NCBI GenBank assembly: GCA_016926735.1 | Contig: JAFGOA010000145.1 | Location: 1-38,537, forward strand | Origin: Promethearchaeota archaeon | Lineage (GTDB): Archaea > Asgardarchaeota > Lokiarchaeia > Sigyniarchaeales > SOKP01 | Reading direction: 5' to 3' | Length of the DNA: 38,537 nucleotides | Part shown: one piece after another, positions 7,665-8,886 of the stretch | Numbering within the stretch: position 1 is the first letter of the stretch | Layout: each line of letters starts with the position of its first letter | Position numbers and translations under genes: made by a program | The notes under the pieces: model-generated | Told to the model about the DNA's origin: nothing | What the model saw: only the letters and a program-made list of their open reading frames with translations | The model's database searches: none

Positions 7665-8886
7665 GTGATCAAGATTACCAATAATGATTTTACTACAAAA
7701 TATATAATAGAAGCAGAATTTAATGTTAAAGGTATAGTAGAAAAAAGTGATATTGTAGGTGCTATCTTTGGACAAAGATAAAAAAGCATCTTTTTTAATC
7801 GTTTAAACAGAAGGCCTCCTTTTAGATTTAGATTTAAGAGATCTTCAAAAATCCGGAAGAATAGGACGTATTGATGTTGAAAATATTTCAGAAGAAGGAA
7901 ACTCAAAAGGTATTATTCACATCCCTTCATCCTTAACTAGAAAGGAGACTGCCTTATTAGCAGCTACAGTTGAAACTGTTTCAAGAGTTGGCCCATGTGA
8001 AGCAAACTTTATACTTAACAGTATAAAGGATGTTCGAGAAACAAAAAGAGCGAAAATCATTGAAAGAGCTGCAGAATTATTAAAAGAATGGGATCAAGAA
8101 TCTTTAGAAGCCAGTGAGATTGAGGAAAAAATAGATACAGATATTAAATTAGGAGAAATCATAGCTTGGGGCCCAGATAATTTACCCGCAGGTCCAGATA
8201 TAGATTCAGATTCTGAAATAATTATTGTAGAGGGTCGAGCAGACGTACTTAATTTATTGAGAATAGGTGTAAAAAACACAGTTGCAGTTCAAGGAACAAG
8301 CGTTCCGAAATCAATTATCAATTTAACACATAAAAAAGAAACTGTTATAGCATTCCTCGATGGGGATAGAGGTGGTACTTTAATACTTAAAGAATTATTA
8401 CAAATAGCTAAAATAGATTATGTCGTTAGAGCTCCTGAAGGATATGAAGTAGAGGAATTAACTAGAAAACAAATGATTAAAATTCTACAAAACAAAAAAC
8501 CAGCAAAACTAGATTTTTTTTCTGAAGAAGAATCCGTAAAAAAAGAGAATATAGATAATTTTACTGGAAAAGAAAAGGTTTTATTCAGATTTTTAAAAAA
8601 GTTAAAAATTAAAAAGAAAGAATTTGTAATGGATCAAATTAGAGAGATTGGAACTGGAATGACTATAGGTCTTGATCAAGATCTAAATAAACTATTTGAA
8701 CTTCCTGTTAGTGAGCTATTTGATAATATAAATCAATTTAAAGATTCTAAAATCCTTATAATTGATGGTATTTTAACAAGTCGCCTTCTTTCACAATTAA
8801 TGCGTATTAATATAAAGATGATAGCATGTAAAAATAAAGAAGAAGACCTTAAAATCTCAGATAAGATTCTTGTATATTATTTTTAA
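7665..8886 (+). CDS. dnaG: Archaeal DnaG primase / exosome subunit, interrupted by a 31-nt intron
   Basis: Archaeal DnaG is a TOPRIM-fold protein known mainly as an RNA-exosome subunit with primase activity. Exon 1 (7665-7775, GTG start overlapping a GGAAGTGATC Shine-Dalgarno-like string) encodes TTKYIIEAEFNVKGIVEKSD and ends GAIFGQ. Exon 2 (7807-8886) begins TEGLLLDLDLRDLQKSGRIG and runs to the stop. Joined, they give 396 residues and the family motif GAIFGQTEGLL. The TOPRIM core is intact: VEGRADV, AFLDGDRGG, then AP-E-GYEVEELT. The 31 nt between the exons (7776-7806) add a stop and shift the frame, but fold as a BHB splice substrate. Exon 2 has no sign of decay. Without the intron reading, the only long open frame starts at 8257 and lacks the N-terminal domain. 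Confidence 0.88.
7776..7806 (+). other. Candidate BHB intron in the dnaG mRNA (31 nt)
   Basis: The RNA folds as bulge-helix-bulge. The central 4-bp helix is GGAC (7770-7773) with GUUU (7801-7804), of which two pairs are G-U. The 3-nt bulges are AAA (7774-7776) and AAA (7805-7807). The intron arm has ten pairs (7777-7786 with 7790-7800, A7797 bulged) closed by a CAU triloop. The rule that archaeal splicing endonuclease cuts between the second and third bulge bases gives 7775/7776 and 7806/7807, exactly restoring the conserved Gly-Gln-Thr-Glu. The outer exon helix is weak, so this would be a relaxed form of the motif. Confidence 0.8.

Follow-up and report, generated by a model that had tools for sequence, protein, structure and literature searches.

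A predicted bulge-helix-bulge intron in the protein-coding gene dnaG of Lokiarchaeal and other Asgard archaea

An established bulge-helix-bulge (BHB) intron of an archaeal protein gene is that of the cbf5 pre-mRNA in Desulfurococcales and Sulfolobales (Watanabe 2002; Yokobori 2009, PMC2738675). It is cut between bulge residues 2 and 3 by a hetero-oligomeric splicing endonuclease, EndA, and enzymes of this type have been linked to the splicing of cbf5 pre-mRNA (PMC2738675) as well as to BHBs of relaxed form (PMC7714728). An EndA-processed BHB intron has also been described in the HVO_1309 mRNA of Haloferax volcanii, in a 2020 paper which stated that, besides this 5′ UTR case, cbf5 was the only archaeal BHB mRNA intron reported (PMC7714728); the original prediction for the locus discussed here, which named cbf5 as the established case among few, agrees with that statement. 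BHB introns are otherwise known from tRNA genes, at non-canonical positions as well. In Asgard archaea, the available part of a 2024 paper reports introns in 92–95% of the tRNA genes of Atabeyarchaeia and Freyarchaeia, and makes no mention of introns in protein genes (PMC11291895). Within the open-access literature, which leaves most subscription papers and all preprints outside, crenarchaeal cbf5 is the only coding-region BHB intron previously reported, and we found no report of an intron in dnaG, in keeping with the original prediction, or in any Asgard mRNA.

Like the cbf5 intron (PMC2738675), the dnaG insert that we describe is a short predicted BHB intron located within a protein gene, with the same cutting register predicted. 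It differs from the cbf5 intron in its gene, in its Asgard host, in the existence of three distinct sites near one motif, and in that its splicing is deduced from sequence rather than from cDNA. With the introns of tRNA genes, including those of Asgard archaea (PMC11291895), it shares the motif, the size range and the presumed enzymes; unlike them, it lies in a protein-coding mRNA, so that its excision must restore a reading frame. With HVO_1309 it shares the presence of a BHB in mRNA, whereas the HVO_1309 intron lies outside the coding region (PMC7714728).

The window analysed here is a contig of 38,537 nucleotides from a Lokiarchaeal MAG of 3.88 Mb that is 99% complete (G000), and the relatives of its dnaG are found in Lokiarchaeota MAGs. 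The gene, an essential one, spans positions 7665–8886 and is broken by 31 nt, which carry an in-frame TAA and cause a +1 shift, a frame interruption of the cbf5 type. Excision of exactly these nucleotides yields ...GAIFGQTEGLL... and an open frame over the whole span, encoding a DnaG of 396 amino acids (NF003108, E=4e-126), precisely as had been predicted. The features of the locus are as follows.

7665–7775, plus strand: dnaG exon 1, GTG start at 7665, encoding VIKITNNDF...DIVGAIFGQ
7776–7806, plus strand: predicted dnaG intron, 31 nt, in-frame TAA at 7779–7781
7807–8886, plus strand: dnaG exon 2, TEGLLLDLDLRDLQ... to the stop codon, only in-frame start TTG 8257
7765–7769, plus strand: 5′ strand (UCUUU) of a weak outer exon-exon helix, partner 7810–7814, from alignment pairing
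7770–7773, plus strand: 5′ (exon) strand of the central helix, GGAC, from comparison
7774–7776, plus strand: 5′ bulge AA^A, predicted cut after the second base, register taken from the cbf5 rule (PMC2738675)
7777–7800, plus strand: intron hairpin arm GAUAAAAAAG-CAU-CUUUUUUAAUC, 3+7 bp with a bulged A
7801–7804, plus strand: 3′ (intron) strand of the central helix, GUUU, from comparison
7805–7807, plus strand: 3′ bulge AA^A, predicted cut after the second base, register taken from the cbf5 rule (PMC2738675)
7810–7814, plus strand: 3′ strand (GAAGG) of the weak outer exon-exon helix, from alignment pairing

The central helix of 4 bp pairs exon with intron and is flanked on each side by a 3-nt AAA bulge, as originally described, and the predicted cuts after base 2 of both bulges give the frame-restoring excision. 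This excision was said to leave no free choice, and a scan of dnaG for canonical BHBs (4-bp helix, 3-nt bulges and at least 3 inner pairs) bears this out: one of the 70 found restores the whole frame, namely that at 7776–7806. The ten pairs predicted for the intron arm were recovered, in a different arrangement of three and seven interrupted by one bulged A, and the weak outer helix is an addition to the predicted structure. This outer helix (UCUUU/GAAGG, 5 bp) is paired in 92.6% of cells of the alignment described below and varies on one side only. It is set off from the 3-nt bulge by two more unpaired bases, which departs from the strict hBHBh′ subtype and therefore makes the motif relaxed on its 3′ side. 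EndA is known to act on such relaxed motifs (PMC6379350). Besides this relaxation, several features of the structure count against an intron: two of the four central pairs are G-U, the z-scores of single-sequence folding (-0.4 to -1.3) show no advantage over shuffles, and a different fold is the thermodynamic optimum of the 91-nt segment. Since folding of the single sequence is not significant, the evidence for the BHB is comparative.

A dnaG match was obtained in 76 of the 83 genomes of the class, and alignment with these relatives, a check that had been proposed for the prediction, places an insert at exactly the same codon junction, CAR^ACN, in 24 genomes. The inserts are 29, 30, 31, 32, 37, 38, 40 or 43 nt long and thus fall into all three length classes modulo 3; dnaG is uninterrupted in the other genomes, including many close relatives. 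All four central pairs form in each of the 23 distinct intron-bearing Lokiarchaeal rows. Pair 3 takes five forms among them (CG, AU, GC, UG and GU), its exon side being the wobble position of a glycine codon and free to vary, and this variation is direct covariation across the predicted splice site. Pairing was also assessed on a 19-sequence alignment of splice-site regions, in which exon and intron ends were joined, the inner loop was omitted and two other families were included. The central helix is paired in 94.3% of its cells, as against 34–61% when the partners are slid; 14 cells have changed on both sides. As high a value was reached in 0 of 500 shuffles, a rough control as the sequences are related.

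In every Lokiarchaeal intron an in-frame stop falls among the initial three codons, and three codon positions are represented. Such a stop is present in 18 of 21 distinct introns, compared with 3.9 expected from shuffles, a figure in which relatedness is left in. It would halt translation of unspliced dnaG mRNA and may have been selected for. On a DnaG tree made by a quick method from exon 2 only, which counts changes and cannot prove their direction, the intron occurs in early-branching members of family f1 (g2, g4, g1 and g9) and is patchy in g7 and g8. The simplest reading of this pattern is that the intron is old in this Lokiarchaeal family and has been lost repeatedly, which would be another likeness to the cbf5 intron, for which ancestral presence with lineage losses has been described. 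One MAG with 6% contamination (G072) carries both an interrupted dnaG, nearly identical to that of G061, and an uninterrupted one on different contigs (L052 and L073), probably a result of contamination.

A reading frame broken in the DNA might also mean that dnaG is a decaying pseudogene, or that the insert is an assembly error. The interrupted copy is the sole dnaG of its 99%-complete genome; the second intact copy named beforehand as a possible objection is thus missing, and the uninterrupted genes of relatives reflect phylogenetic presence and absence (the contaminated MAG excepted). Compared with a genome of the same genus (G022), the intron of which is identical, dN/dS is 0.13 in exon 2, and all 5 changes in the 105 nt that precede the intron are synonymous, so that no amino acid differs there. 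Purifying selection, as judged from these substitutions, acts on both exons. Recurrence of the insert at one junction in 24 genomes, independently assembled MAGs among them, excludes a sequencing error, a further objection foreseen at the outset, and makes pseudogene decay or misassembly exceedingly improbable. Alternatively, a truncated DnaG could arise by internal initiation in exon 2, which is open for 359 codons, in which case the insert would merely part two reading frames. There is no ATG, GTG, TTG or CTG in frame before TTG 8257, however, so that such a protein would lack about 150 conserved residues, and with exon 1 under strong constraint we give this explanation next to no credence.

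Nor does the insert resemble other intervening elements. The G000 genome contains no other copy of it at up to 3 mismatches, and there is therefore no sign of a mobile repeat. A group I or II self-splicing intron was considered and rejected, as the insert has no Rfam match and is only 31 nt long, compared with a catalytic core of >200 nt in those introns.

Among the matches listed from a phylum-wide search, in which all counts are lower bounds, further dnaG genes have a break at this position. A same-junction intron is predicted in families f19 (G157, G158) and f29 (G227), in at least 3 genomes, with a central helix of GGCC/GGUU in f29 and one of 3/4 pairs in f19. In family f18, a canonical BHB lies 14 nt downstream of the first site in 8/8 genomes examined, 7 of them checked automatically and one (L101, bulge AU^U) by eye. 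Its sequence is GCCU AC^A ... GGGY AA^U, and canonical cutting restores TEGLLGEDLDL. A third site lies upstream, at SDI^VGAIF, in a single Lokiarchaeal gene (L067, G051:C54) with a 30-nt insert that contains an in-frame TAA; the insert has a strong intron hairpin and a weaker central helix, and very close, near-identical relatives are intronless, so that it is probably a recent gain. Conservation of the predicted dnaG intron extends to dozens of Asgard archaea, and these independent introns at neighbouring sites further support the intron reading.

The early stops and the hairpin call for one more comparison. Phage T4 gene 60 is a known case of translational bypassing, and ribosomes might similarly leave the dnaG message at CAA, skip the hairpin and land before ACA. 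The insert is a hairpin, and in all Lokiarchaeal introns a stop follows the supposed take-off within three codons, both of which would suit such a process. The codon preceding the landing site is UAA, or in the rest AAA or UUA, yet never the take-off codon CAA/CAG; the inserts of f18, f19 and f29 lack an early stop of the Lokiarchaeal type; and the covarying pairs join exon to intron in precisely the register of a BHB. Bypassing is therefore very unlikely, and an intron remains the preferred reading.

The enzymes presumed to act on this intron are largely encoded in the same genome. Two G000 genes contain the EndA domain PF01974, one catalytic and one structural, from which a hetero-oligomeric EndA is predicted. 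The closest solved structure to the catalytic protein is 3p1z/3ajv (E=7e-36), a tRNA-splicing endonuclease chain which we take to be Aeropyrum pernix EndA. The protein keeps the catalytic His, and opposite residue 44 of this chain it has the lysine of the Crenarchaea-specific loop (CSL), which is needed for broad substrate specificity and tied to relaxed substrates. The second protein has no catalytic His and therefore fits the expectation for a structural beta subunit. Counting against the intron, the ligase RtcB was not found in the 99%-complete assembly; it is present in 75 of the 83 genomes of the class, including same-genus G022, and its absence is likely an assembly gap.

The rtcB gene is itself interrupted in a few genomes. 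In two of them (L116, G024:C222; L117, G061:C295) a 29-nt canonical BHB intron is seen at GGVGY^DINCGV (UUGG AU^A ... CCAA A[C/A]^A), the excision of which reopens the entire frame, and neither genome yielded a second rtcB copy. As read from these sequences, a self-splicing feedback loop is possible. In L142 (G080:C300), rtcB has an in-frame 30-nt hairpin insert with a TGA near LPD^AHQGYGF; the frame of this gene is not restored by any canonical BHB, and a relaxed motif is possible.

A de novo scan for frame-restoring BHBs covered 284 kb of G000, comprising the window and 20 other stretches (about 7% of the genome). It placed the known positives (f18 dnaG and rtcB) on top and established no other protein intron in these 284 kb; the few genome hits followed up turned out to be gene boundaries, or overlaps with the wrong frame, and were rejected. 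Among the class matches listed for cbf5 and radA, no candidate interruption was seen apart from cbf5 on one contig (L141, G080:C151), where a canonical BHB intron of 32 nt interrupts GTLDPKVTG; its host is unsure because the MAG is 9% contaminated. Of the two tRNA genes attributed to the window by the original prediction, only one was found. It encodes tRNA-Gly(UCC) (17893–17993, minus strand) and contains an intron at a non-canonical position after the anticodon arm according to Rfam, or at position 38 according to ARAGORN.

Taken together, we hold with high confidence that the dnaG insert is a BHB pre-mRNA intron removed by the tRNA-splicing pathway to give a full-length DnaG mRNA. Comparison supplies the site, structure, covariation, frame restoration and conservation, and both EndA subunits are present. 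A BHB intron is the sole explanation that fits, because the exact codon site is shared, the lengths fall into three classes modulo 3, the covariation links exon and intron, the cut sites are in register, and the one interrupted copy has both exons under purifying selection. All tested features of this kind of intron were found, which on sequence grounds makes it an archaeal BHB pre-mRNA intron of a relaxed subtype. In the proposed pathway, dnaG would be transcribed as a pre-mRNA with the 31-nt intron, a heterotetrameric EndA (alpha2beta2) would cut both 3-nt bulges between bases 2 and 3, and ligation of the exons, most likely by RtcB, would form the mRNA for full-length DnaG; the released intron may be circular.

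A wider proposal, that pre-mRNA splicing by the tRNA machinery is old and conserved in Asgard archaea, with dnaG as a hotspot, a regulatory role and an rtcB loop in some lineages, is tentative and on present evidence rather unlikely. If it were true, dnaG could be regulated through unspliced mRNA, on which translation would end no more than three codons into the intron, and RtcB would have to ligate its own mRNA in lineages with an rtcB BHB intron, closing the feedback circuit that this intron suggests. The dnaG introns would constitute a second coding-region BHB family with broad comparative support. Their hosts are the closest archaeal relatives of eukaryotes, a setting in which the origin of mRNA introns matters. 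Annotation pipelines likely truncate DnaG in intron-bearing genomes, and the dnaG introns allow the gain and loss of introns, and their preference for particular sites, to be measured.
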